A stretch of DNA of 64,000 nt from Gammaproteobacteria bacterium (GCA_026713925.1 JAPONM010000018.1:62001-126000); one strand, 5' to 3'. Counted from the first letter of the stretch, positions 16,844 to 34,191 are shown. Notes: generated from the sequence alone by a model not told the origin. Translations and numbers: made by a program.

Positions 16844-17098
16844 CCCCTTCATCTTGACCGAAACAGGGCCGCTGACTCATGTACAGGTCATGCGCGGGCA
16901 GCCCTGCAAAAACAGGCCGACGCCGTGGCCGGACCCTTCTCCAGGGATCGCCAGGGACAAGGGCCGGTGTTTATTTTCAAGACAGGACTTTTATCTGGGC
17001 AGCATTTGAAAATAAAATGTGTACAATGCTCGTCAACGGATGAATTCAGGATACTGTGGTATACCGGCTCACACAAAGTGACCGGCATGCCAGGATCA

Positions 17099-18688
17099 AT
17101 GTACGAGCAGTTACACAACAATCTCTCCCGGATCATCAGGGACAGGCATTTGCATCTGTTGTCCGGCAGCAAGATTGGTCTGGAAAAAGAATCGCTGCGG
17201 GTAGACCGTGACGGAAAGATTTCACAGCAGGCACACCCGCATGCTCTGGGTTCCGCGCTTACCAACCCCTATATCACTACAGATTATTCGGAAGCACTGC
17301 TGGAACTCATTACGCCGCCCATGCAGGGGATCCCCTCAACCCTTGAGTTCCTGAAAAAAATCCATCAGTTCGTTTACCCGCGGCTGGGAAATGAGTCGTT
17401 GTGGGGCACCAGCATGCCGTGCGCAGTGGTTGGTGATGAAAGTATACCCATCGCAGATTACGGCGAGTCGAATCTGGGCATGATGAAAACTGTCTATCGC
17501 CGTGGTCTCGGGTATCGCTACGGCAAGATGATGCAGGTGATCGCAGGCATACATTTCAATTATTCGATGCAGGACGGTTTCTGGTCGTACTATCACGATG
17601 TTTCCGGCCGTGCCTTATCGCTCCAGGATTTTGTTTCGGACCGGTATTTCGCATTGACGCGTAACCTGCAGCGTTACGGATGGCTAATCTATTATCTGTT
17701 TGGTGCGTCCCCTGCAGTCTGCAAATCTTTCTTAAGCGGACAGCCCGGCTCCCTGAAGCAGTTTGACAGCATCACGTATTACCTGCCCTATGCAACAACT
17801 TTGCGCATGGGAGATATCGGCTACAACAACAAGAAAGAAAGTGAAATCGGAATCAAGGCCTGTTACGACAGTGTTGACTCGTACATCAAATGTCTGGCCC
17901 GTGCCATCGAAACACCATTTCCCGAATATGAGAGGCTCGGTGTCAAGGTTGACGGCGAGTACCGCCAGCTCAATGCCAATATCCTGCAAATTGAAAATGA
18001 ATATTACAGTACCGTCCGGCCCAAGCAGCCTTGTGCGGCTGATGAAAAACCGATTCATGCACTAGGCCAGCGTGGAGTCCAGTATATCGAGCTGCGCTCC
18101 CTGGACCTGGATTTGTTCGAACCGTTGGGCACCAGCTCCACTCAACTCCATTTTCTGGAAGCCTTCATGGTTTTCTGCCTGTTGCAGCACAGTCCATTGA
18201 TCAATACGGAGGAACGCCAGGCCATCGATAACAACGAGATCAATACCGCACACCATGGCCGTGACCCGGCGCTCAGGCTGACCAGAGGGCGGAAAAAGAT
18301 TTCATTGCAGGCGTGGGGCCGGGAAATCCTGTGCGAGATGCAGGGCATCTGTGAAGCACTGGATGAATTGAGCCATTGTGACAGCTACCGCGATGCCTTG
18401 CGTCATCAGGTCGAGTTGATTGAAGATCCTGCGCTGACACCCTCTGCAAAAGTACTGCACGAGATGCGCACCCACAAGGAAGGGTTTTTCGAAATCTCGA
18501 GCCGGTACTCCGAAATGCACCGCAACCAGTTGTGCAAGCATCCGTTGGGTGATCAGGATACGGAGCATTTCAATAATGTGGTGCTGCAATCTGTTGAAAA
18601 ACAACGCAAGATAGAGGCTTCGGATACCGTATCTTTCGATGAATTCCTGGAAAACTACTTCCGGCCAAGCTCTCCGAAAAAACCATGA
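17099..18688 (+). CDS. gshA: Glutamate-cysteine ligase
   Basis: First step of glutathione synthesis, making gamma-glutamylcysteine from Glu, Cys and ATP. The 529-residue protein is close in size to enteric GshA (about 518) and shows the type 1 motifs: SGSKIGLEKESLRV (metal- and substrate-binding Glu), TDYSEALLELITPP, IAGIHFNYSM and YIELRSLDLDLFEP. The ATG at 17099 precedes the conserved LSRIIRD helix; an ATG four codons upstream and a longer open frame are possible. A TTTATC/TAAAAT pair around 16990-17020 may be the promoter. The fused selD gene follows 72 bases later on the same strand, so co-transcription is plausible. gshB is not in the window. Confidence 0.96.
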   Translation: MYEQLHNNLSRIIRDRHLHLLSGSKIGLEKESLRVDRDGKISQQAHPHALGSALTNPYITTDYSEALLELITPPMQGIPSTLEFLKKIHQFVYPRLGNESLWGTSMPCAVVGDESIPIADYGESNLGMMKTVYRRGLGYRYGKMMQVIAGIHFNYSMQDGFWSYYHDVSGRALSLQDFVSDRYFALTRNLQRYGWLIYYLFGASPAVCKSFLSGQPGSLKQFDSITYYLPYATTLRMGDIGYNNKKESEIGIKACYDSVDSYIKCLARAIETPFPEYERLGVKVDGEYRQLNANILQIENEYYSTVRPKQPCAADEKPIHALGQRGVQYIELRSLDLDLFEPLGTSSTQLHFLEAFMVFCLLQHSPLINTEERQAIDNNEINTAHHGRDPALRLTRGRKKISLQAWGREILCEMQGICEALDELSHCDSYRDALRHQVELIEDPALTPSAKVLHEMRTHKEGFFEISSRYSEMHRNQLCKHPLGDQDTEHFNNVVLQSVEKQRKIEASDTVSFDEFLENYFRPSSPKKP

Positions 18689-18760
18689 CAGCATGGGCAG
18701 AACCGGTACGGCAGTTGACACCGGCAAGCCCAAACCAAATTGACCCGATCGGAACATTTC

Positions 18761-21046
18761 GTGCAAAGTTCGACTAATCAAACAGTTGTCAAAGACCTGG
18801 TGTTAATCGGTGGCGGTCACAGCCATGTTGCCGTACTGAAAAAATTTGGCATGAATCCCGTATCGGGCCTGCAGATCACCCTGATCAGCCGCGATGTGCA
18901 CACCCCGTATTCAGGCATGCTTCCTGGCTATATTGCAGGCCATTACGAATATGACGAAAGTCATATTGATTTACAGCCTCTCTCACGGTTTGCGGGGGCA
19001 CGCCTGTTTCATACGCATGCCAGTGCGCTCGACCTGGAAAACAAGTATGTTATCTGTGGCAATCGCCCACCGGTGCGGTTTGACGTGCTTTCCATCAATA
19101 CCGGATCGACGCCTTCCCTGGAAGTGCCGGGCTCAGATGAACATGCACTGGGCGTGAAACCCATCAATCAGTTTTTGCGTGGATGGGACGCCATGATGAG
19201 GGAAGTGCTGGCACGCAGTGGCAGGTACCAGGTCGTCGTGGTGGGTGCAGGGGCCGGAGGAGTTGAAGTTGCCCTGTCAACACAGTTCCATCTGCAGAAG
19301 CTACTGCACAAGCACGCCTTGCCTACGGACAGGCTTCAATTTCATCTCATCTGCGGCAACGGTTCGGTTCTGCCCACGCACAACCGTTCCGTACAACGCC
19401 GTTTTCTACGGGTATTGAAGGACCGCCGAATCGTTGTACACAACTCGCGAACAGTCACTGAAGTCAACACTGGGGCCATCCGGCTGGATTCGGATGATTC
19501 ATTGGAAGCAGATGCCACAATCTGGGCCACACATGCCTCAGCTCCTTCCTGGTACAGGGAATCCGGGCTTGCCGTGGATGAGCGAGGATTTATACTGGTG
19601 AACAGTTCCCTGCAGTCGATTTCTCACAGCGACGTGTTTGCCGCAGGAGACATTGCCACGGTGACCGACTACCCTCGACCCAAATCGGGCGTGTTTGCGG
19701 TGCGACAGGGACGGCCCTTGTACAAGAACCTGAAACGCGCGCTTCAGGACAGACCGCTAAAAAAGCACGTGCCGCAAATCAGCTTCCTCAGCTTGATCAG
19801 TACAGGAAATCAATACGCTGTCGCCTCGAGGGGAGTGCTGGCCTGGGAAGGAGCATGGGTGTGGAGGCTCAAGGATGCCATCGACCGGAAGTTCATGCAC
19901 AAGTACAACAGTCTCCCGGAGATGGAAACCAAGCAGGATCATGGTTTCGACAGCACGCTGGCAAGCCAGGATTCACTCAAGGAACTCTCTGCCATCGCAA
20001 TGCGGTGTGGCGGATGCGGCGCAAAAATAGGCAGCAACGTCTTGAGTCGGGTCATCAATCAACTGTCACCTTTCATGCGCGAAGATGTGTTGCTCGGGCT
20101 GGATGCCCCCGACGATGCCGCCGTAGTGGAGGTGCCCCCGGGGAAAGTACAGGTACAGTCGGTGGATTATTTTCGGGCATTCATAGATGACCCCTATGTT
20201 TTCGGACAGATTACAGCCAATCACAGTCTCAGCGACGTGTTTGCCATGGGAGCAGAAGCCCAGGCAGCGATGGCCATCGCAACCATTCCTTACGGTATGG
20301 AAAATATTGTCGAGCAGCAGCTTTACCAGATCATGGATGGTGCAGTACAGGTGCTGAACCAGCACCAGGCGACCCTGGTAGGTGGCCATTCCAGTGAAGG
20401 AGCTGAACTTTCTTTCGGCCTGAGTGTGACCGGACTGATCGACAGGGAGAAACTGCTCGCCAAGGGAGGCATGCAGGCTGGTGACGCCCTGATCATCACA
20501 AAACCAGTAGGCACCGGCACGTTGTTTGCTGCTGAAATGCGTGGCAAAGCCAAGGGACGCTGGATCGCCGGAGCCATTGACTGCATGCTCCTTTCAAACC
20601 ATGCGTCCGCACAATGCCTGTACGACCATGGTGTACATGCTTGTACGGACATCACGGGCTTTGGTGTACTGGGTCATCTGGTAGAGATGGTGCGGGCAAG
20701 TCAGGTGGACATACGGGTGGACCTGAATGCACTGCCGATTCTCGATGGCACACCCGAAACGATTGAACTGGGAATCTTCAGTTCCCTGCAGCCCTCTAAT
20801 GTTCGTCTGCGCCGTGCCGTCAAAAACCAGAAGGCTGCTACCCGGCACCCGCTCTACCCTGTGCTGTTTGACCCCCAGACTTCCGGCGGTTTGCTGGCTG
20901 CAGTCCCCGCTCGGCACGCGCAGGCCTGTGTCGCGGAACTGCACCGCCTGGGCTATCGACATGCCGGTATCATCGGACACGTGCACCCGGCCAGTGATGA
21001 AATGGAGTCCATATATGTCAATACGGATGCATCAGGGGGACAATAG
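18761..21046 (+). CDS. selD: FAD/NAD oxidoreductase-selenophosphate synthetase fusion (SelD; SenC-like role)
   Basis: Two-domain protein of 761 residues. Residues about 10-375 are a pyridine nucleotide-disulfide-type FAD/NAD domain (NDH-2-like): FAD loop GGGHSH at 17-22, second dinucleotide loop VVVGAGAGGVE near 162-169, and FAAGDIATV. Residues about 405-755 are SelD: MRCGGCGAKIG (Cys416/Cys419 at the catalytic selenium site), GLDAPDDAAVV, SVDYFRAFIDDPY, LVGGHSSEGAE and DPQTSGGLL. SelD makes selenophosphate from selenide and ATP. The fusion partner probably supplies reducing power, but that is inference. Next to senB and senA homologues it likely serves as SenC of selenoneine synthesis. The gene seems to begin with GTG at 18761; no ATG precedes the first conserved strand. 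Confidence 0.93.
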   Translation: MQSSTNQTVVKDLVLIGGGHSHVAVLKKFGMNPVSGLQITLISRDVHTPYSGMLPGYIAGHYEYDESHIDLQPLSRFAGARLFHTHASALDLENKYVICGNRPPVRFDVLSINTGSTPSLEVPGSDEHALGVKPINQFLRGWDAMMREVLARSGRYQVVVVGAGAGGVEVALSTQFHLQKLLHKHALPTDRLQFHLICGNGSVLPTHNRSVQRRFLRVLKDRRIVVHNSRTVTEVNTGAIRLDSDDSLEADATIWATHASAPSWYRESGLAVDERGFILVNSSLQSISHSDVFAAGDIATVTDYPRPKSGVFAVRQGRPLYKNLKRALQDRPLKKHVPQISFLSLISTGNQYAVASRGVLAWEGAWVWRLKDAIDRKFMHKYNSLPEMETKQDHGFDSTLASQDSLKELSAIAMRCGGCGAKIGSNVLSRVINQLSPFMREDVLLGLDAPDDAAVVEVPPGKVQVQSVDYFRAFIDDPYVFGQITANHSLSDVFAMGAEAQAAMAIATIPYGMENIVEQQLYQIMDGAVQVLNQHQATLVGGHSSEGAELSFGLSVTGLIDREKLLAKGGMQAGDALIITKPVGTGTLFAAEMRGKAKGRWIAGAIDCMLLSNHASAQCLYDHGVHACTDITGFGVLGHLVEMVRASQVDIRVDLNALPILDGTPETIELGIFSSLQPSNVRLRRAVKNQKAATRHPLYPVLFDPQTSGGLLAAVPARHAQACVAELHRLGYRHAGIIGHVHPASDEMESIYVNTDASGGQ

Positions 21047-21424
21047 TGGATGCCGGGGGCCTGTGACAGGCCAGCTCACCCGACCTGACCTGTGTGCAGC
21101 CCACAAAAGGAAAGCCCGCGTGAAGCAGGCTTTCCATGCAGGCTCGTCGTCTAGCTGGTGATGTTTTACTGCATAGAGTCGTGCGTTGCTGACACTTAAA
21201 TTGCCCCGCCCTGCAGTCTCCTGCACTCCCGGGACATGACTGTAATGTTACGCTCGACCTGCATCTGGCTGTATTGCCGGCCCGCAAGCAAACAACTATA
21301 AAACACTCACAGGGTCAGGCTACGCTGAACTTTCATGCAGCACAACCAAAACTTCATTATGAAACAAATCAAATACCTTGATACCGCACTGCAGAATGAA
21401 ATAGAACAGACCGCGCGCAGTCGT
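21047..21424. other. Convergent region between selD and senB
   Basis: Holds the hairpin at 21109-21135. A 27-codon frame (ATG at 21359, opening MKQIKYLDTAL) runs into the end of senB; it has no Shine-Dalgarno and I do not call it a gene. Nothing else was recognised. Confidence 0.5.
21109..21135. terminator. Terminator-like hairpin downstream of selD
   Basis: Perfect 8-bp stem GGAAAGCC / GGCTTTCC with an 11-base loop. On the minus strand it is followed by CCTTTTG, a short T-run; on the plus strand there is none. It could end transcripts from either side. Confidence 0.55.
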
Positions 21425-22378
21425 TCAGGTGGCGTTGCCTAACAAGATTTTCCATTTGCTCTTCTCGCGCTCACAGGAAAACAACCCGGCTTTGGCCTGG
21501 CACCTGGCCTGCAGTTCTTGCAGCCAGACCGGGTCTGCTTCGGCCCTGAGAAGCAGTGTTCGCAATGCACGGGTATCCCCTACTGTAAAATAGCCGGGAT
21601 AATCTTTCCCCAGCAAACCGATCGAACCCGCGATATCCGAGGCGATTGTCGGCAGGCCTGCCACGCAGGCTTCTGAAATGACGTTGGCGCCTCCTTCCAT
21701 TCTCGAACTCAATACCATCACATCTGCGGTTGCATACACCTTGCGCACCTGCCAGTGCGGCACCTCACCGTGCCAGTGATACCGGGCATTGTCCCGCATT
21801 TCCTTTTCTGCCCGCTTTGCCCAGACCTGTGTATGAGCCTTGCCGTATTGATTGACCTGTACACGCGAATGGGCCGGCAGCCTGCGTACGGCACGGGCCG
21901 CACGCAGCGGGTCTTTTTCTTCACGCAAATGTCCGATCACACACACGCTAAATGCTTTTCTTCTTTCTACGGGCTTGCGGACCACCGGCTTAGCCGATTG
22001 ATGGATCACGGAAATCTTTTTCCTATATCTTTCAGGAATCGCCAGACCTGCGAGATCATGCAGGGTCACCAGAATGTCTGCGGCCTGAATGGAATATAAT
22101 GTAGGCTCAGGAGACGTCCTGATGAATTTATATATATCGGTGCCGGTCAATGCCACTACCAGCAAGTGGTCAGGGCACTGCAAATGGAAACGACGTATGG
22201 ATGCAGCACTGCGCCATGCATGCAGCGCAATCATGGCATCATACCGCCCCTCTGTGAACTCGGTTTTCACGTCCACCCTGTGCCCGAGCTCAACCAGTAT
22301 GTTTCTCCAGCGGGTTGCGGTAGCACGGTTTCCCGCACGGGACCGGGGCAATGCCGGTGTAACAAGAATAATTTTCAT
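21425..22378 (-). CDS. senB: SenB-like selenosugar synthase (GT-B glycosyltransferase)
   Basis: A 317-residue GT4-like glycosyltransferase. It opens MKIILVTPALPRSRAGNRAT and continues with TRWRNILVELGHRV, the pattern of the TIGR04348 family, now known as SenB. SenB transfers a sugar from a UDP-sugar to selenophosphate, giving a selenosugar. FSVCVIGHLREEKDPLRAA starts the second Rossmann domain, and EGGANVISEACVAGLP (about 228-243) is the nucleotide-sugar-binding E-x7-E region. No signal peptide or membrane segment. It converges on selD and diverges from the SenA-like gene, both known SenB partners. Without the context it would be called only a glycosyltransferase; the context raises the SenB call. 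Confidence 0.82.
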   Translation of the reverse strand: MKIILVTPALPRSRAGNRATATRWRNILVELGHRVDVKTEFTEGRYDAMIALHAWRSAASIRRFHLQCPDHLLVVALTGTDIYKFIRTSPEPTLYSIQAADILVTLHDLAGLAIPERYRKKISVIHQSAKPVVRKPVERRKAFSVCVIGHLREEKDPLRAARAVRRLPAHSRVQVNQYGKAHTQVWAKRAEKEMRDNARYHWHGEVPHWQVRKVYATADVMVLSSRMEGGANVISEACVAGLPTIASDIAGSIGLLGKDYPGYFTVGDTRALRTLLLRAEADPVWLQELQARCQAKAGLFSCEREKSKWKILLGNAT

Positions 22379-22380
22379 GA

Positions 22381-22431
22381 TAAGGCAAATGGTATTACGC
22401 TATGGGATGAATAACAGGGTATATTGCCTTA
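22381..22431. promoter_or_regulatory. Divergent senB/senA control region with an inverted repeat
   Basis: The 81 bases between the two start codons must hold both promoters. An 8-base inverted repeat, TAAGGCAA (22381-22388) and TTGCCTTA (22424-22431), brackets an AT-rich centre. It could be an operator pair or loop. No promoter elements stand out. Confidence 0.3.
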
Positions 22432-22459
22432 CCCGAACACAATCCGACATGGGCAATCC

Positions 22460-23764
22460 ATGAATTACGACCTTGCCACAGTAAAAGCCCTGACAGCGGC
22501 ATTGCAGGATGCGCGTGCCAGAACGCTGGCGCTGGTCGAAGACCTAGACGAACAGCAACTGCTGGGACCCCGGCTACCCACTACCAATCCGTTGTGTTGG
22601 GAAATTGCACATGCCGCCTATTTTCACGAACTGTGGGTACTACGTCACCTGGGCAGACGAACGGAAATCCTTCCGGACTCGGATGAGCTGTTCGATTCCA
22701 TTTCAATCCAGCATGATCTGCGCTGGGATCTGCCCTTGCCTGACATGATCAACATTCTCAAGTACATGGAAGACGTGCTGTCAGCAGAGCTCGTACAACT
22801 GAATCAGATCGAACTTGCAGATTCTGAAAAATACTTCTACCTGCTGGCCCTATTTCATGAAGACATGCATGGCGAAGCCCTGACGTATACACGCCAGACA
22901 CTGGCTTATCCGGCACCAGGTTTTCTGCAGGGCAAGGCACCGTCCGGCCATGCCGAGTCTCCGGCAAACGAAGACATTGAAATTGCAGGGGGGGTATTCA
23001 TGCTCGGTGCGAAACGGGATGGTGAATTCATCTTTGACAATGAAAAATGGGCACACAAGGTCACACTCGCACCATTCAGAATCGCCCGGTATGCCGTGAG
23101 CAACCAGGATTATGCAGAGTTTGTCGAAGCCGGCGGATACCTGACAGAGAAATACTGGTGCCAGCAAGGATGGAGGTGGCGCTGTGAACAGGGTCTTGAA
23201 CACCCTGTATACTGGAACAGGGATTCAGACCAGACGTGGTACGCAAGGCAGTTTGACCAGTGGCGTCCCTTGGACCTGTCACACCCGGTGATCCACATCA
23301 GCTGGCATGAAGCCAGCGCATTTTGCAAATGGGCGGGCCGCCGCCTGCCGACAGAAGCGGAGTGGGAATTTGCCGCAGCCTGTGATCCGGGCAACAGGAC
23401 CGACGACGGGCCGCGCAAGACCCCGTTTCCCTGGGGAAAGCATATCGCTGAGAATTGTGCCAACCTGGACAGTACGGCCCCAGGTACCGTTGCAGTAGAT
23501 GCCTGCCCGAATGGTGACAGCGCTTCGGGCTGTCGGCAAATGCTCGGCAACGTCTGGGAATGGACAGACTCGACTTTTCTGCCGTACCCGGGTTTTTCAC
23601 CGGACTGGTACAGGGAGTATTCCCGACCGCTGTTTGGTCAGACAAAAGTGCTGCGTGGGGGCGCGTGGGCCACCCGCGGGAGAATGCTGCGCAATACCTG
23701 GCGCAACTACTACGGGGCAGACCGCAACGACGTATTTGCCGGATTCAGAACCTGTGCTGATTAG
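22460..23764 (+). CDS. senA: SenA/EgtB-like non-heme iron sulfoxide/selenoxide synthase
   Basis: A 434-residue EgtB-family enzyme that joins hercynine to a sulfur or selenium donor with O2. The N-terminal DinB-like domain has the three iron ligands: a His near 51 (EIAHAAYFHE) and His133/His137 in HEDMHGE. The C-terminal part from about residue 180 is a formylglycine-generating-enzyme-like domain (GGVFMLGA, WHEASAFCKWAGRRLPTEAEWE, GNVWEWTDS, LRGGAWATR, GFRTC). EgtB proper uses gamma-glutamylcysteine or cysteine; SenA uses the selenosugar made by SenB. Adjacent SenB-like and SelD genes favour SenA. EgtB for ergothioneine remains the main alternative, since gshA is close by. I used the ATG at 22460; an open TTG frame extends upstream to 22424. 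Confidence 0.85.
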   Translation: MNYDLATVKALTAALQDARARTLALVEDLDEQQLLGPRLPTTNPLCWEIAHAAYFHELWVLRHLGRRTEILPDSDELFDSISIQHDLRWDLPLPDMINILKYMEDVLSAELVQLNQIELADSEKYFYLLALFHEDMHGEALTYTRQTLAYPAPGFLQGKAPSGHAESPANEDIEIAGGVFMLGAKRDGEFIFDNEKWAHKVTLAPFRIARYAVSNQDYAEFVEAGGYLTEKYWCQQGWRWRCEQGLEHPVYWNRDSDQTWYARQFDQWRPLDLSHPVIHISWHEASAFCKWAGRRLPTEAEWEFAAACDPGNRTDDGPRKTPFPWGKHIAENCANLDSTAPGTVAVDACPNGDSASGCRQMLGNVWEWTDSTFLPYPGFSPDWYREYSRPLFGQTKVLRGGAWATRGRMLRNTWRNYYGADRNDVFAGFRTCAD

Positions 23765-23833: not shown

Positions 23834-24640
23834 GTGAGTTGGTGGGGAAAACTGGCAGGAGGTGGACTCGGATTTGCCCTGGGGGGACCCCTTGGCGCCA
23901 TGATCGGAGTCATGCTGGGCCACCAGCTGGACAAATCATCCGCGGGTCATGCGGGCCGGATCGGATTTGACAGGGGTTCCCAGGAACGCACCCAGGCCGC
24001 CTTTTTTACTGCAACCTTTTCGGTAATGGGTTGTATTGCCAAGGCTGACGGGCACGTTTCCCCCAAAGAAATCCAGCTCGCAGAACAGGTCGTAGAGCAA
24101 ATGCGCTTGAACAAAGAGCAGCGAAAAGTTGCCGTTGAGCTGTTCAACCAGGGCAGGCAGGACGGCTTCATGCTGGATGATGTGCTCGAACAGTTCCGCG
24201 CGGAATGCCAGCGCAAGACCACACTTATCCAGATGTTCATAGAAATCCAGTTGCAAGCTGCCTATGCAGACGGCGTCAAGGACCCTGCAGAGGAACGCCT
24301 GCTGCATCATATCTGCAACAGGCTGGGTTACCCGGTCGAATGGCTGGCTCAGCTGGAATCCATCACGTTTGGACAGCAGTATCATTCCGGACATGCCGGA
24401 AGCGCCCAGCCAGCATCAGCATCGGAAATAAGGAACGCGCACAGGGTTCTCGGTGTTGACCCGGCGGCGACAGAGGCGGATGTCAAGAAGGCCTATCGCA
24501 GACTGATGAGCCAGCATCATCCGGATAAACTGATCTCCAAGGGTTTGCCGGAAGAAATGATCGAGATTGCCACAGAAAAAACCCAGGAGATACGCAAGGC
24601 ATATGAGCTGATTCAGCAACAGCGCAAAACGCATCACTAG
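23834..24640 (+). CDS. djlA: Membrane-anchored J-domain co-chaperone DjlA
   Basis: DnaK co-chaperone of the inner membrane. The 268-residue protein has the DjlA layout: one N-terminal glycine-rich membrane segment (about 7-28, GGLGFALGGPLGAMIGVMLG), a TerB-like helical domain at about 45-175 (FFTATFSVMGCIAKADGHVS) and a C-terminal J domain from about 195 with HHPDKLISKGLP, the HPD motif that stimulates DnaK. Starts with GTG at 23834; no in-frame ATG is available. In E. coli djlA acts in envelope stress through the Rcs system; no such genes are near here. Confidence 0.94.
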   Translation: MSWWGKLAGGGLGFALGGPLGAMIGVMLGHQLDKSSAGHAGRIGFDRGSQERTQAAFFTATFSVMGCIAKADGHVSPKEIQLAEQVVEQMRLNKEQRKVAVELFNQGRQDGFMLDDVLEQFRAECQRKTTLIQMFIEIQLQAAYADGVKDPAEERLLHHICNRLGYPVEWLAQLESITFGQQYHSGHAGSAQPASASEIRNAHRVLGVDPAATEADVKKAYRRLMSQHHPDKLISKGLPEEMIEIATEKTQEIRKAYELIQQQRKTHH

Positions 24641-26816: not shown

Positions 26817-29800
26817 TCAGGCGGGAGCAGTTTCATCCGCACGAAGTGGTTTTGCCGTTCCAAGCTGCAGGAAGCTGGGCAGCAGAATAAGCGTGAACAT
26901 GGTACTTACACCCATACCGCCAACGATCACGCCCGCAAAGCCCCGGTAAAGTTCAGAGCCGGCTCCAGGAATGATCAATAAAGGCAACATCCCGAAAATA
27001 CTGGTCAGGGTGCTCATCAATATGGGCCGTAACCGCACACGTACAGATTCGTGCACGGCATCGTGTCGCGATTTCCCTCTGCGTTCGGCAGCACGGGCCT
27101 GATGCACCAGCAAGATTGCATTGTTCACGACCAGGCCAAGCAAGACGATAAAGCCGAGCATGGTTAGCAGGTCCGCGTGTAGACCCAGTGCCCGTAGCAT
27201 CAACACACCCCCTACTGTAGCAAGGGGCAGGACCAGAACCACGAGAATGCTGTCGATGAACGACCGGAACAGGGCGCTGATCAAAAGATAAAGGATGATC
27301 ACTGCCAGGACAAAGCTGCCGGCAAAACTTTTAATGGCTGTCTTCAGGTTGTCTGCAGAACCACTGAGTCGAATCTCTCCATCCTCCGGAAGCTCCCGTT
27401 CCATTAGCGGTACAATTTCCTGCTTGATCTTATCAATGACCACTTCCAGTGGCATACCGGGTGGCGGTCGAAACTCCAGGGTGACGGTACGCCGACGGTC
27501 CAGGCGGCGAATCTGATCCGGACCGGCCGTACGTTTGATATCAACAAGTTCACTGACCGGCAATACCCCGCCTTTCGGAGTATACAAGGGGATTGCAGCC
27601 AGCTCTTCCGGAGTTGACCAGGGTTCAACCCTTGCAACCACATTGATCTTTTCTTCACCCGTAAAAAATTCATTTACAAACAGACCCTGACCCAGAAACC
27701 GGGTCAGGACCGCCATCGTGCCACGATTCCATCCGGCCTCGATCAGGCGGTCCTCTTTAGGCACCATTTGTAACTCGGGCTCAGCCAGCTGCAGGCCGGG
27801 GCGAGGACGGGCCCGGGTCCCGTTGAAAACATTTGGAATTTCAAAAAACCCGACCCGTGCAGCGCGTAACAGGCTATCGATATTGCTTCCCTGGATATTG
27901 ATGTCGACTTCCGTACGCCCGCCGACGCCACTGAACAAAGAAGCTTTCCGGACAACGACAAAACTGTCCGGAAAACCTTGTACGGTTTCGTGCACCACCT
28001 CCAGTACCCGGTCGATTTCCTCTTTATTGGAGGACTGCGCCTGTGCACCCAAAAACATGGAACCCGGTCGGGCAACAAAAAAGTAGTGTTTGATTTTTGG
28101 GGACTTGCTGCCATCCAGATAAGGTTGCAGACGTGCGGCAACCACCTTGCCCATTTCTTGTTCAATATGGTCAATATTGACACCCGGAGGCGGGATCACG
28201 ATGCCGAATACCAGATTGCGGTTGCCGGTGGGCAGGTAATCGGTTTTGGGAAATGCCAGATAAGTGATCGCGAGCGCAGAACTGATCAAGCCAGCAATCC
28301 ACATCCAGCGCAGGGCGGCTGAACCGGTCATCTTCATGATGAAAGAACTGGAACGTTCCAACCAGGAATCGCGGCGCTCTCTACCCATGTTTGCCATGAA
28401 CTTGTGTGCTGCAACGGGAATGACTGCACTTGCTACCAGAAGGGAGGTAGCCGTGGCCGCGGAAATTACGATCGCGAGATCCGAGAACAGCTGACCGCTC
28501 TGGTCCTTTAAAAATATGATCGGCAAAAATATTGCTACCGTGGTGACGGCGGAAGCAAACAGGGCTGGCCAGACCTGCAGGGTACCCTCAAGTGCCGCTT
28601 TCCTGGAAGTCATTCCCTGCTCACGCATCCGCACGATATTCTCCAGCACGATGATTGCGGCATCCATCACCATACCTACCGCAAAGGCCATGCCTGCCAA
28701 GGATATGACATTGATGGTGCGCCCTGTCATATTCATTACCACCAGCGTCACGAACAAGCACAAAGGTATGGTCAGGGTGACGATAAGGGTGGCCCGGAAC
28801 TTTCTTAAAAACCACCATAGAACCACTATAGCCAACAGGATTCCCAGACTCAGACTGTTGCGAAGCAGTTCAATCGCACTGTTGATGTACACGGTTTCGT
28901 CATAAACCTGTTCAATATTGAGATCGGCCCGTTTGAAAGGACCCTGCTCGATTTCCTTGACCGCAGCACGTATGTCAGCCATGGTTTCAAGCACATTGAC
29001 GCCTGCCTCACGGTAGGCGTTGACAGCTATGGTCAGGTCACCCTTGGTAATTACAAAGTTGTTTCGATCGACTGTACGAAGTTCTACCTGGGCGATGTCC
29101 CGCAAGGTGACCGGTTTGCCGTCACGCCACTCCAGGATCAGATCACCGAATTGCTGGGCATCCAGTGCGCCGGTATAACGCAATGTGTAACGCCGCTTAC
29201 CGACATGCGCAGTGCCACCGGACACATCGTCGTTGCTGCCTACAACTGCTGCAGCCTCAGGCAACCCTACCCCCAATCCTGCCGCCTTGTACGGGTCGAC
29301 CGTAACCCGCACCTCATATTCATTGCCACCACGCACTTCAGAAAGGGCAACACCCGGGACTCGCTCAAAACGTGTCTGCACAACCTCTTCGACAAAATCC
29401 CGGTAGGTCTCGATCGGTCTCGTATTGCTTTCGTTCGTCTTGATGATGAACCATGCGATCGGGCGCCCTCTCCCCCCGGCCGTACTCAGTACAGGCTCGT
29501 CCGCATCTTCAGGGTAACTGGGGACACGGTTCAGACGGTTGATCACCTCGATCAGCGCACGATTCAGGTCATAGTCTACATCGAAGGTGATCGTGATCTT
29601 GCCTTTTCCGGCACTGGCCTCCGATAGCAGTTCCTGCATACCGGGCAGACCACGCAGCTGTTTTTCCTGTGGTTCAATAATTTCAGATTCAACTTCTTCC
29701 GGAGCCGCTGCACGCCAATTGGTGGAAATCACAATTTCGGGTTGTTCAACTGCAGGGGTAAGCTGTATGGGCAAACGAGTCAGGGTCACGGAACCAAACA

Positions 29801-29867
29801 GGATCACCAGCAAGCAGCCAACCAGAGTTGCCGTAGGGTTGCTCAGAGCAGACTTGATAAGATTCAT
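26817..29867 (-). CDS. RND efflux pump, inner-membrane transporter
   Basis: Proton-driven AcrB-type exporter of 1016 residues, the standard HAE-RND length. It opens with a membrane segment followed by LTRLPIQLTPAVEQPEIV. It shows the repeated six-helix halves and porter loops, with GMAFAVGMVMDAAIIVLENI in the fourth-helix region (the adjacent acidic residues carry protons) and GFIVLLGLVVNNAILLVHQARA in the second half. The gene overlaps its adaptor gene by 4 bases. No outer-membrane TolC-like factor and no regulator are in the window, so the pump must borrow a channel. The substrate cannot be inferred. Confidence 0.94.
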   Translation of the reverse strand: MNLIKSALSNPTATLVGCLLVILFGSVTLTRLPIQLTPAVEQPEIVISTNWRAAAPEEVESEIIEPQEKQLRGLPGMQELLSEASAGKGKITITFDVDYDLNRALIEVINRLNRVPSYPEDADEPVLSTAGGRGRPIAWFIIKTNESNTRPIETYRDFVEEVVQTRFERVPGVALSEVRGGNEYEVRVTVDPYKAAGLGVGLPEAAAVVGSNDDVSGGTAHVGKRRYTLRYTGALDAQQFGDLILEWRDGKPVTLRDIAQVELRTVDRNNFVITKGDLTIAVNAYREAGVNVLETMADIRAAVKEIEQGPFKRADLNIEQVYDETVYINSAIELLRNSLSLGILLAIVVLWWFLRKFRATLIVTLTIPLCLFVTLVVMNMTGRTINVISLAGMAFAVGMVMDAAIIVLENIVRMREQGMTSRKAALEGTLQVWPALFASAVTTVAIFLPIIFLKDQSGQLFSDLAIVISAATATSLLVASAVIPVAAHKFMANMGRERRDSWLERSSSFIMKMTGSAALRWMWIAGLISSALAITYLAFPKTDYLPTGNRNLVFGIVIPPPGVNIDHIEQEMGKVVAARLQPYLDGSKSPKIKHYFFVARPGSMFLGAQAQSSNKEEIDRVLEVVHETVQGFPDSFVVVRKASLFSGVGGRTEVDINIQGSNIDSLLRAARVGFFEIPNVFNGTRARPRPGLQLAEPELQMVPKEDRLIEAGWNRGTMAVLTRFLGQGLFVNEFFTGEEKINVVARVEPWSTPEELAAIPLYTPKGGVLPVSELVDIKRTAGPDQIRRLDRRRTVTLEFRPPPGMPLEVVIDKIKQEIVPLMERELPEDGEIRLSGSADNLKTAIKSFAGSFVLAVIILYLLISALFRSFIDSILVVLVLPLATVGGVLMLRALGLHADLLTMLGFIVLLGLVVNNAILLVHQARAAERRGKSRHDAVHESVRVRLRPILMSTLTSIFGMLPLLIIPGAGSELYRGFAGVIVGGMGVSTMFTLILLPSFLQLGTAKPLRADETAPA

Positions 29868-30925
29868 GGGTGCGTTTGCAGCGGTTTTACCCTGACTGCC
29901 ATACCATGCTCCAGGTTTTCACCACCGCGCGTCACCACACGGTCATGTTCCAGAATGCCGCCGATGACCTCTATGTTTCCGGATTCTGCAATCCCGGTCT
30001 CCACGGTAATCTTTTCGGCAATGGATTCTTTATTGATCCGGAATACGTACACGCCTTCCCTGCGCAATACCAACGCATCACGGGGCACCAGTATGGTTTC
30101 ACGGGGATGCGCCGTCGGTATGGCAACACGCAGCAGATTGCCGGCTTCGAGTGAAGGGTCGGATACAGAGATCCGCAATTCGTATAACCGTGACACGTCC
30201 CCTCCAACCGGTACGAATACACGCACTTTGCCTGTACCGGACATGTTTCCGTCCGTGTACATCAAGGGTGTACCTTTTGCTACATACTGCAAGGTGCTGG
30301 ACGGTACATGCGTTTGAATCTCCAGATCGTCAAGACTGACCAGGCGTACAATGACTGCACCCTTGTCAGCCCATTCCCCTGCCTGTAGGAACCGTGCCGA
30401 CACGACACCATCAAAGGGTGCAAGGATATTGGTGCGCTTCAAACGTTCCTCAGCCTGTGCCAGACGTGCCTTGGCAGAGAGGATGTTGCTGCGTGCGACA
30501 GATTGATCCGTGCTTGCCTGGTCAACCCGACTGTATGCAATGTTATCGTCCGTCAGAAGCTGACTGAAGCGCTCGACTGTCCTGGTATAAAAATTATATT
30601 TGGCCTGTTCACTCTGGATAATGGACTTTTCCTCAATCACCTGCTGTCTGATAAACACATCATCCAGTTTTGCCACCCGCTCGCCTTTTCGGAAACGATC
30701 CCCCACTTCCGCAACCCAGGTCAGGAGGCCGGATATCTCTCCGGCCAGATTGGCATCGTTGCGGCTGATGACCGCTGCACTGTACAGGACGGTAGGGGAC
30801 ACATGTTTTTTTACAGCATGTTCGGTCACTACAGGCACAACAAAGGAATCCGCCATTTGTTCTGCATGCACGGAAGAGGCCAGAATGACCAGGGTTGAAA
30901 TAATATGTGCCAACAAGGATTTCAT
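29864..30925 (-). CDS. RND efflux pump, periplasmic adaptor (membrane fusion protein)
   Basis: Bridges the RND transporter and an outer-membrane channel. The 353-residue protein has a signal peptide (cleavage near SVHAEQ, residue 22). It has a split lipoyl domain (SGLLTWVAEVGDRFRKGERVAKLDD and LAPFDGVVSARFLQAGEWADKG), a helical hairpin between them (about 90-160), and a beta-barrel with a C-terminal membrane-proximal domain (VPRDALVLRREGVYVFRI). There is no lipobox Cys, so it is probably soluble or uses an uncleaved anchor. First gene of a two-gene operon with the transporter. Confidence 0.92.
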   Translation of the reverse strand: MKSLLAHIISTLVILASSVHAEQMADSFVVPVVTEHAVKKHVSPTVLYSAAVISRNDANLAGEISGLLTWVAEVGDRFRKGERVAKLDDVFIRQQVIEEKSIIQSEQAKYNFYTRTVERFSQLLTDDNIAYSRVDQASTDQSVARSNILSAKARLAQAEERLKRTNILAPFDGVVSARFLQAGEWADKGAVIVRLVSLDDLEIQTHVPSSTLQYVAKGTPLMYTDGNMSGTGKVRVFVPVGGDVSRLYELRISVSDPSLEAGNLLRVAIPTAHPRETILVPRDALVLRREGVYVFRINKESIAEKITVETGIAESGNIEVIGGILEHDRVVTRGGENLEHGMAVRVKPLQTHP

Positions 30926-30964: not shown

Positions 30965-31927
30965 TCACGGGCTTAACGAACCGCTGCAACTGCTTCCCTG
31001 CCCAGCGGTGCAGCCATAACAATGATCGGCAACTGCAATTTTGCTGCTACGCATATCAACGTCAACCAGCTCTGACAAATGTGTGCGCGTCTGGTTATTG
31101 TACTGCAAAGGCAAACCAAGCATTTGGTTAAAGTCACAATCGTACACATAGCCCTGCCAGTCGACGCTGATCAGGGAGCGGCACATGACTGACTGCAGAT
31201 TTTTTGCATGGTAGGCATCACGCAGCAACAGCATGTATTCCCTAAATTTTCCCTGGCTGATCAGGGTGCTGCCAAATCTGTTTATCGGCATGTTCGTGAT
31301 GGTAAACAAGTGATCAAAGCTGACCCCGTACTCGACCAGAAACTCGCGGTAGTCCCGCTCCAGCCTTTCCTGCGGTGGCGGCAAATCGGGACCCTGAGGA
31401 TTGTATACCAGGGTGAGGATCAGGACTTCATCGTTCTTGCCATACCCCAGGGCATTCAGTTTGCGAAGTGCACGTATACTTTTCTCAAACACCCCCTTGC
31501 CACGCTGCCTGTCGACATTCGTCTCAAGATAACAGGGCAGTGAAGCCACGACCTGTACTTTCTGTGCTGCCAGAAAATCGGCAAGGTCCTGCTGTCCAGG
31601 CTCTTCGAGAATGGTCAGATTGCACCGGTCAATGACACGCTCTACCCGGCTGTTGGCCATGCTTACCAGCTGCCTGAACTGCGGGTGCAACTCGGGTGCA
31701 CCACCGGTGATATCCAGCGTGTGAATCTTGCGGGCGTTCAGGTATTCCATCACCGTATCGATGGTTTCAGATGACATCATCTCCTTGCGATGAGGTCCGG
31801 CATTTACATGACAATGTACACAGGACTGGTTGCACCGGTACCCCAGGTTGACCTGCAGGGTTTGCACCTCATTGCGGTGAATTTCAGGAAAATCGGTTCG
31901 TTTCAGTAAGTGAAGCGTGTCGCGCAT
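30965..31927 (-). CDS. ArsS-like radical SAM enzyme (arsenosugar biosynthesis family)
   Basis: Radical SAM protein of 320 residues with the cluster motif CNQSCVHC (Cys32, Cys36, Cys39) and the SAM-binding DITGGAPELHP. The C-terminal part, DUF3641-like, has LISVDWQGYVYDCDFNQMLG and DHCYGCTAGQGSSCSG, a Cys-rich tail typical of the TIGR04167 ArsS family. ArsS proteins are proposed to add the deoxyadenosyl group to dimethylarsenic in arsenosugar synthesis. The usual partner ArsM methyltransferase is not here, so the arsenic role is family-based inference. It lies 28 bases after the TVP38-flavoprotein gene on the same strand. Confidence 0.85.
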   Translation of the reverse strand: MRDTLHLLKRTDFPEIHRNEVQTLQVNLGYRCNQSCVHCHVNAGPHRKEMMSSETIDTVMEYLNARKIHTLDITGGAPELHPQFRQLVSMANSRVERVIDRCNLTILEEPGQQDLADFLAAQKVQVVASLPCYLETNVDRQRGKGVFEKSIRALRKLNALGYGKNDEVLILTLVYNPQGPDLPPPQERLERDYREFLVEYGVSFDHLFTITNMPINRFGSTLISQGKFREYMLLLRDAYHAKNLQSVMCRSLISVDWQGYVYDCDFNQMLGLPLQYNNQTRTHLSELVDVDMRSSKIAVADHCYGCTAGQGSSCSGSLSP

Positions 31928-31955: not shown

Positions 31956-34085
31956 TCACCGGCGTTCAAACGCATGATACCTTTTTACCCAGTTCAGCAT
32001 TCTTTGTGGTGCATGGGCCCGTTTCCACTCGCCCGCAGCAGCCTTGTTGGCTTCAGCCAGCGTCGGGTAGATATGTATGGTGCCCAGGATCTTGCCGAGA
32101 CCCAGTTTATGCTTCATGGCCGAAATGTACTCCGTGATCAGGTCTCCCGCATGCTCACCTACAATGGTTGCACCCAGAATCCTGTCTTTGCCAGGAACGG
32201 TCAGCACCTTAACCATACCATGCGCTTGTTCATCGGCTATGGCGCGGTCCAGGTCAGACAGGTCATAGCGTGTGACCTCATACTCAACACCCTGGTTCTT
32301 TGCCTCCTGTTCATTCAGACCCACTCGTGCCACTTCGGGCTCCGTGAAGGTACACCATGGAATGACCGAATAATCTACCCGAAACTTCCTGAACCTGCCA
32401 AACAGGGCATTGACACTGGCATACCATGCCTGATGCGATGCCGTGTGCGTAAACTGGTACGGACCCGCGAGATCGCCACAGGCATAAATATTGGGGTAAT
32501 TGGTCTGCAAAAATTCATTCAGTGCCGGCCTTCCGTCTTTTTGCAGTTCAATCTGCAAGTGGTTTTCCCAGGCCGAATGCGAGGTCACCTTGCGCCCCAC
32601 AGCCACCAGGATGGTATCGAACGGCACATTCACTTCCTCGCCATTATGGGCGCAAACCAGCCTATTCGAACCTGCTTCCTGCAGCACTTCCTTGGCGACG
32701 TGCCCGGTAAGAATCCGCACGCCATCCCTAGCGAAGCTTTCTGCCACCATGGCCGAGCACTCGGGGTCTTCACGCGGCAGGATTCTGGGACCTCTTTGAA
32801 CCTGGGTGACGCTCGAACCAAAACGCGCAAAACATTGTGCCAGTTCACAGCCGATCGGACCCCCACCGAGTACAACCATGCGCTCGGGCAACTCCTCCAG
32901 GCTCCAGATGGTATCCGAAGTATGGTACTCAATACCTGACAGACCCGGTATCTCAGGTATAAAGGGGCTGGCCCCCGTGGCCAGAATGATATTCCGGCTA
33001 GTCAGGTTTTTTTCATTGACAGCGACTGTCCAAGGATCTTTCAATTCCGCTTCGCCCTGAATACATTCGACCCCCAGCTTTGTATAGCGTTCCACGGAAT
33101 CGTGGGGCTCGATTTTCCCGATCACCCTGCGTACGCGCTGCATGATCTTGCTGAAATCAAAATTTACCTCGACAGGCTCACAGCCGTACTGTACAGCCCG
33201 CTTTGCCTGTGAAATGAATTTCGCCGAACGAATCAGTGCCTTCGAAGGCACGCAGCCCGTATTCAGACAATCTCCGCCCATTTTGCCCTTTTCGATGAGA
33301 GTGACCCGGGCCTTGACCATCGCAGCAATATACGCAGCGATCAGACCTCCGGAACCAGCACCGATTACAATCAGGTTACGATCGTATTTTCTGGGTCTGC
33401 GAAAACCTGCATAAGCGCGCCGTGCCCGGAACAAGACCAGCACTTTCCTGGCCACCCAAGGGAAAATCGCCAGCAGCCCGAACGCCACGACAAGATCCAA
33501 AGTCAGGATTCCGCCCAAGGATTCCAGGTCAGCAAGCTGGGTGCCGACGTTCACAAAGATGATGGAACCCGGAAGCATGCCTAGCAGACTGACCGAGGAA
33601 AAAACAGCCGTGCGCATGGGAGTCAGACCCATGACCAGATTGATAACAAAAAACGGGAAGATGGGAATCAGACGCAGTGTAAACAGGTAAAATGCACCGT
33701 CTCTCTCAATCCCCGTGTTTACAGCCCGAAGCTTGTCGCCGAAACGGTTTTGCACGAAATCGTGAAAGATATACCGGGAAAGCCAGAATGCAACGGTGGC
33801 ACCGGCAGTTGCAGCAAGCAATACGGTAACCGCCCCGACGGGCAAACCGAAGATCGCTCCGGCCAGCACTGACAGCACTCCCGCACCCGGCAGGGACAGG
33901 CCTGCCACCGCGAAGTACGCCAGGAAGAATATCAGCACCGTTTTTACGGGGTATGTATGAAAATAGTCCGTAATCAGTGCCTGTCTTGATTTAACATAGG
34001 AAAAATCAAGATACTGGTGCAGGTCAAACAGGAAAAATCCGGCAATCAGCATCACGACGGCCAACAATACGGCTAATTTTTTCAT
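31956..34085 (-). CDS. TVP38/DedA-like membrane domain fused to a mercuric reductase-like flavoprotein
   Basis: A 709-residue fusion. Residues about 1-215 are a TVP38/TMEM64-type membrane domain with several hydrophobic segments, including SLPGAGVLSVLAGAIFGLP and TLRLIPIFPFFVINL. Residues about 235-705 are a class I pyridine nucleotide-disulfide oxidoreductase: FAD loop IGAGSGG (241-247), redox-active CLNTGC (Cys273, Cys278), NAD loop VVLGGGPIGCELA and the dimer-domain IHIYPTLAEA. It lacks the HMA domain and the C-terminal Cys pair of true MerA. A GAGGGA Shine-Dalgarno 8 bases before the ATG at 34083-34085 fixes the start. Likely co-transcribed with the ArsS-like gene. Substrate unknown. Confidence 0.88.
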   Translation of the reverse strand: MKKLAVLLAVVMLIAGFFLFDLHQYLDFSYVKSRQALITDYFHTYPVKTVLIFFLAYFAVAGLSLPGAGVLSVLAGAIFGLPVGAVTVLLAATAGATVAFWLSRYIFHDFVQNRFGDKLRAVNTGIERDGAFYLFTLRLIPIFPFFVINLVMGLTPMRTAVFSSVSLLGMLPGSIIFVNVGTQLADLESLGGILTLDLVVAFGLLAIFPWVARKVLVLFRARRAYAGFRRPRKYDRNLIVIGAGSGGLIAAYIAAMVKARVTLIEKGKMGGDCLNTGCVPSKALIRSAKFISQAKRAVQYGCEPVEVNFDFSKIMQRVRRVIGKIEPHDSVERYTKLGVECIQGEAELKDPWTVAVNEKNLTSRNIILATGASPFIPEIPGLSGIEYHTSDTIWSLEELPERMVVLGGGPIGCELAQCFARFGSSVTQVQRGPRILPREDPECSAMVAESFARDGVRILTGHVAKEVLQEAGSNRLVCAHNGEEVNVPFDTILVAVGRKVTSHSAWENHLQIELQKDGRPALNEFLQTNYPNIYACGDLAGPYQFTHTASHQAWYASVNALFGRFRKFRVDYSVIPWCTFTEPEVARVGLNEQEAKNQGVEYEVTRYDLSDLDRAIADEQAHGMVKVLTVPGKDRILGATIVGEHAGDLITEYISAMKHKLGLGKILGTIHIYPTLAEANKAAAGEWKRAHAPQRMLNWVKRYHAFERR

Positions 34086-34191
34086 CGTATATGTCCCTCG
34101 GAGAACCCGTGCGCGTCGTGCATGCAATATCTGGTTTCAAACATCAGGCTGTGATTACAATACCCATTGCAGAAAACCATAGTACCCGGTA

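Follow-up and report, generated by a model that had tools for sequence, protein, structure and literature searches.

Selenoneine is an antioxidant that contains selenium. It occurs in marine animals, and where tuna obtain it is still unsettled (PMC10903977), a question to which bacterial producers are relevant. The closest described system, as far as the accounts in PMC10891094 and PMC10903977 set it out, is the senA-senB-senC cluster of Variovorax paradoxus (Kayrouz et al., 2022). A second system, the ovoselenol pathway with its enzyme OvsA (Kayrouz et al., 2024; PDB 8u41, 8ux5), enters here as cited in PMC13188914. Fusions of SelD to an Ndh flavoprotein have been described since 2008, with a CxxC motif in the SelD active site as their published mark (PMC2398784), and a 2015 report found Ndh-SelD to be by far the commonest SelD fusion (PMC4561486).

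The window, by which we mean the whole stretch of 64,000 nucleotides that was analysed, comes from a small (~2 Mb) gammaproteobacterial genome whose nearest relatives found are metagenome bins. Region 18761-23764 encodes an Ndh-SelD fusion (plus strand), a GT-B glycosyltransferase (minus strand) and an EgtB-like enzyme (plus strand). The initial annotation had seen here, within 5 kb, a SelD fusion, a glycosyltransferase opening MKIILVTPAL and an enzyme with HEDMHGE and an FGE-like domain, and had proposed that the trio is a SelD-SenB-SenA selenoneine locus. Open frames for the three genes lie at the positions it gave, the motifs and domains were all found, and its proposal is supported by profiles, a tree, key residues and an egtD gene elsewhere in the genome. 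Judging from sequence, we put the probability that this is a selenoneine biosynthesis locus at roughly 0.93. The gene set, the family memberships, the catalytic residues, the co-occurrence with EgtD and the absence of SelB are direct observations. The features are:

18761-21046, plus strand: selD/senC, an Ndh-SelD fusion in which a flavoprotein domain of the NDH-2/FSP1 type precedes the selenophosphate synthetase
18794-19906, plus strand: FAD/NAD(P)-binding oxidoreductase domain of the fusion, from profile and domain searches
20006-20026, plus strand: SelD active-site motif C416-G-G-C419-G-A-K422 (CxxC, catalytic Cys and Lys)
21109-21135, minus strand: hairpin resembling a terminator, downstream of senB, with 11 pairs followed by TTTT, a consensus match only
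21425-22378, minus strand: senB, predicted selenosugar synthase (Se-glycosyltransferase), from TIGR04348, PDB matches and residues
22379-22459, no strand: 81-bp spacer between the divergent senB and senA starts, presumed site of both promoters
22460-23764, plus strand: senA, predicted selenoneine synthase (non-heme Fe, DinB-like and FGE-like domains), from NF041186, residues and tree

The cluster itself is real, and its gene order and fused selD are common among related bacteria; the senB/senA/selD trio recurs within the window's order, dozens of proteobacterial genomes besides carry it too, and the profile matches (E 1e-118 and 3e-151) are far beyond chance. No promoter consensus was found in the 81-bp spacer, and terminator-like hairpins number nine in the region against 4.9 expected. 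Upstream, gshA (16925-18688) ends 72 bp before selD, and djlA (23834-24640) lies downstream. Glutathione might aid selenite reduction, gshA being directly upstream of selD; as a functional link we rejected this adjacency, which holds at the level of the genus and is lost in sister genera. Elsewhere in the window, genes for a subunit of an RND-type efflux pump and for the membrane-fusion protein that partners it (26817-30925, minus strand, recognised by eye) adjoin the cluster in the same order in several relatives. An arsenosugar-type radical SAM protein, ArsS (30965-31927, minus strand; TIGR04167, 465 bits, cut-off 300), sits beside a 723-residue protein (31956-34127) that matches dihydrolipoyl dehydrogenase and MerA-type oxidoreductases over its C-terminal two thirds.

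The fusion scores 477 bits against TIGR03169 (cut-off 310) and 297 bits against the selD model TIGR00476 (cut-off 125), with Pyr_redox_2 at the N-terminus and SelD at the C-terminus, and its PDB matches are E. coli SelD (3u0o) and the NDH-2 YjlD. Its frame extends from a TTG over 18740-21046, and the GTG at 18761, which agrees with the starts of relatives and had been chosen in the initial annotation, is most likely the start. C419 and K422 align with the Cys and Lys of E. coli SelD, and C416, C419, K422 and C723 are invariant across 50 Ndh-SelD fusions. No invariant Cys was found in the Ndh domain across the same 50, and the domain therefore fits an NDH-2/FSP1-like flavoprotein and not a sulfide:quinone-type enzyme; SQR-like chemistry was considered for it and is unsupported. 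The simplest guess is that the domain would give SelD reduced selenium.

The glycosyltransferase, by its profile score, belongs inside the SenB family, the first of three points on which the initial annotation could have failed: it reaches 395.8 bits against TIGR04348 (cut-off 300) over positions 1-308 of 310. The protein, which opens MKIILVTPAL and contains TRWRNILVELGHRV, has as its closest solved relatives 8k5u, 8jjn, 8jjq and 8fbx (E 4e-49 to 2e-45 for 8k5u, 8jjn and 8fbx). In SenB, the residues studied by mutagenesis or listed as conserved are N20, T23, H58, K158 and the EGGA(H)V motif (PMC10891094); in the alignment the window protein keeps N17, T20, H53, R152, K155 (the equivalent of K158) and EGGANV, with N in place of H in the motif.

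The identity of the EgtB-like protein as SenA was weighed against both OvsA and EgtB. Its frame is open from 22424, and the ATG at 22460 (MNYDLATVKAL), where relatives start, is most likely the true start. It contains the HEDMHGE motif together with a domain of the FGE-sulfatase type (PF03781, E 1.3e-49), keeps the iron-binding His triad H51/H133/H137 and the catalytic Tyr (Y384), and scores 504 bits against the SenA model NF041186 (cut-off 420). This match by itself was rejected as proof, since OvsA passes the same model at 435 bits; for that reason automatic annotation may also call ovoselenol enzymes selenoneine synthase. The possibility that the protein is an OvsA-type selenoxide synthase, joining the selenosugar to histidine and not hercynine, draws further on the phmmer search, where the closest solved structure is not SenA but OvsA (8ux5 and 8u41, 316 and 307 bits, against 230 for Variovorax SenA), and on OvsA-type genes that also lie near senB at two loci (L099, L147). 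The lead of OvsA is tempered by Variovorax SenA being itself very divergent (branch 2.6). In the tree, OvsA groups with two OvsA-type neighbours on a single branch (length 2.22, support 100/100), while the window protein falls in a different, well-supported SenA subclade, apart also from EgtB; the branches of Variovorax SenA and EgtB are very long and their exact placement is unsure.

Substrate-site residues point the same way. The EgtB positions used here (R87, Q137 and D416, and 380, 414 and 415) follow what we take to be the literature numbering. At 380/414/415 the window has Y387/N416/Y417 against M/Q/A in wild-type OvsA, and 8ux5 differs from 8u41 at exactly these positions, with Y/N/F as in Variovorax SenA, presumably an engineered substrate pocket. 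At the 13 columns separating SenA from OvsA the window protein is SenA-like in all 13, no departure from strongly conserved SenA columns was found in it, and it reaches the TIGR04373 signature (84 against a threshold of 71), which OvsA does not (57). An EgtD would moreover be idle beside OvsA, and the co-occurrence of SenA and EgtD described below is exact. Taken as far as sequence permits, these results exclude an OvsA identity, and we regard an ovoselenol-type locus as very improbable. To our knowledge no member of the gamma/alphaproteobacterial SenA subgroup has been assayed.

The other reading takes the protein for an ordinary EgtB making sulfur ergothioneine from gamma-Glu-Cys or Cys, with SenB and SelD serving another end. 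The presence of EgtD would suit it, as would gshA just upstream of selD, and the EgtB profile score (TIGR03440, 339 bits) is near the cut-off of 360. It is nonetheless under that cut-off, where the SenA score is well over its own, and the gshA adjacency is gone in sister genera. Nearly all members of the clade are paired divergently with senB, and R87, Q137 and D416 of EgtB are replaced by H85, M136 and Y418, as in Variovorax SenA (H, M and F) and as in OvsA; across the SenA clade the first two are H and M in 77 of 77 proteins and the third is Y or F in 73, the other four being three gaps and an A. By these signs the window protein groups with SenA and not with sulfur-specific EgtB, the second point on which the initial annotation might have fallen, and a sulfur pathway seems to us, if anything, the less credible of the two alternatives to selenoneine. 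No EgtB-family enzyme besides SenA was found in the window genome.

Selenoneine synthesis calls for hercynine, and EgtD, which had been expected outside the window and whose absence would have been the third point against the initial annotation, is indeed encoded elsewhere in the genome (G000:C61:116897-117808; 333 bits, cut-off 290.9), with the active-site motifs conserved in the solved EgtD 4uy6. The window's order is represented here by one family with 19 genomes, of which 14 have SenA together with EgtD and five have neither; random placement would give this pattern with a chance of 1 in 11,628, a figure to be read as support and not as a p-value because the genomes are related and possibly only two losses are involved. 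In the window's own genus egtD is not linked to senA, which counts somewhat against selenoneine, whereas in four genomes (G005, G009, G010, G011) senA, egtD and selD run in one direction with egtD directly between the others.

Other selenium use was also considered. No SelB over the cut-off was found by profile search in the 19 genomes of the order, so that selenocysteine decoding is not visible and SelD is unlikely to serve selenocysteine. SelU is over its cut-off in 17 of the 19, the window's genome included (G000:C64), and SelD therefore probably serves tRNA selenouridine besides SenB. A SelD devoted solely to selenoneine was thus rejected, and SelD alone proves nothing about selenoneine.

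The arrangement of the genes turned out to be ordinary. The initial annotation had called the split orientation and the fused SelD unusual, and neither judgement stands. When the SenB alignment was used to scan genome contigs, 80 loci came up. A SenA-like gene is in reach at 71 of these, and at 69 of the 71 it is divergent from senB: 61 satisfy a strict script rule, and eight more were counted by hand, divergent pairs whose stop-to-stop frames overlap or whose gap is slightly longer. Both exceptions are of the OvsA type: L099 is divergent but has a gap of ~2.9 kb, and L147 has the two genes on the same strand. SelD lies in reach at 51 loci and is visibly fused to Ndh in 44 of them; it converges on senB in 31, the layout of the window and the commonest one, and follows senA in 17. 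Four senB loci lack senA in reach (L105, L106, L111, L138). L105 and L106 are not orphans, since SenA is encoded elsewhere in their genomes; the L138 genome has only a relative under the cut-off and in that of L111 none was found, both genomes being possibly incomplete. The genomes that hold L106 and L105 (G020 and G019) carry, away from senB, a SenA gene (~480 bits) divergent beside a second gene of SenA/OvsA type (~410 bits) (L174, L175, L178, L179), and genomes of this kind might produce ovoselenol as well as selenoneine.

Three relatives (G007, G012, G013) have senB directly divergent from Ndh-selD (L081:1329-4701, L080:1043-4498, L079:7336-10808), and neither senA nor egtD was found genome-wide in them, at a completeness of 82-91%. 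Their SenB proteins score 355-374 bits and retain the catalytic residues, T23 being Ser in G012 and G013. Between these last two, senB has a dN/dS of 0.15 at a dS of 1.2, close to the 0.09-0.13 of senA-bearing pairs, which suggests that purifying selection on senB persists without SenA. Whether the SenB and Ndh-SelD module has a use independent of SenA and hercynine is doubtful on present evidence, and we lean against it. If it did, a selenosugar or a derivative would be a selenium product in its own right and the window genome could make this as well as selenoneine. That senA and egtD are lost together without exception, while some relatives retain senB, offers a defined test of a selenosugar role outside selenoneine.

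For the preferred selenoneine locus, all chemical steps are drawn from characterised homologues, and the route would run as follows. The Ndh flavoprotein domain may help to provide selenide, from which, with ATP, the SelD domain would make selenophosphate. SenB would then swap the UDP of a UDP-sugar, probably UDP-GlcNAc, for selenium, with cleavage of the Se-P bond giving a 1-selenosugar, while EgtD, encoded elsewhere in the genome, would trimethylate histidine to hercynine. SenA, as a three-histidine iron enzyme, would use O2 to couple the selenosugar to the hercynine imidazole at C-2, and the resulting selenoxide would collapse to selenoneine with no lyase needed. The locus and egtD put a complete gene set for selenoneine in a small-genome gammaproteobacterial lineage.

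Set against the known systems, the locus combines familiar parts. With EgtB (PDB 4x8b) its SenA has in common the fold family, the iron triad and the equivalent of the catalytic Tyr377 (PMC10903977); it differs in carrying H, M and Y for R87, Q137 and D416 and in being paired with senB and selD. With OvsA it has in common the enzyme superfamily, the selenosugar logic and a SenB partner nearby, but lies on a separate branch, with Y/N/Y in the substrate site where OvsA has M/Q/A. Compared with the published Ndh-SelD fusions (PMC2398784, PMC4561486), the domain order and the CxxC in the SelD active site are the same; the genomes with fused SelD in PMC4561486 have selenoproteins and Sec machinery, whereas the window genome has no SelB and its visible uses of selenium are selenoneine and SeU. 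Finally, in comparison with the Variovorax paradoxus sen cluster, the window has an Ndh-SelD fusion, a distantly similar SenA (230 bits) and an egtD elsewhere in the genome, while the three enzymes are the same, the catalytic residues of SenB and SenA are kept and EgtD would likewise supply the hercynine.
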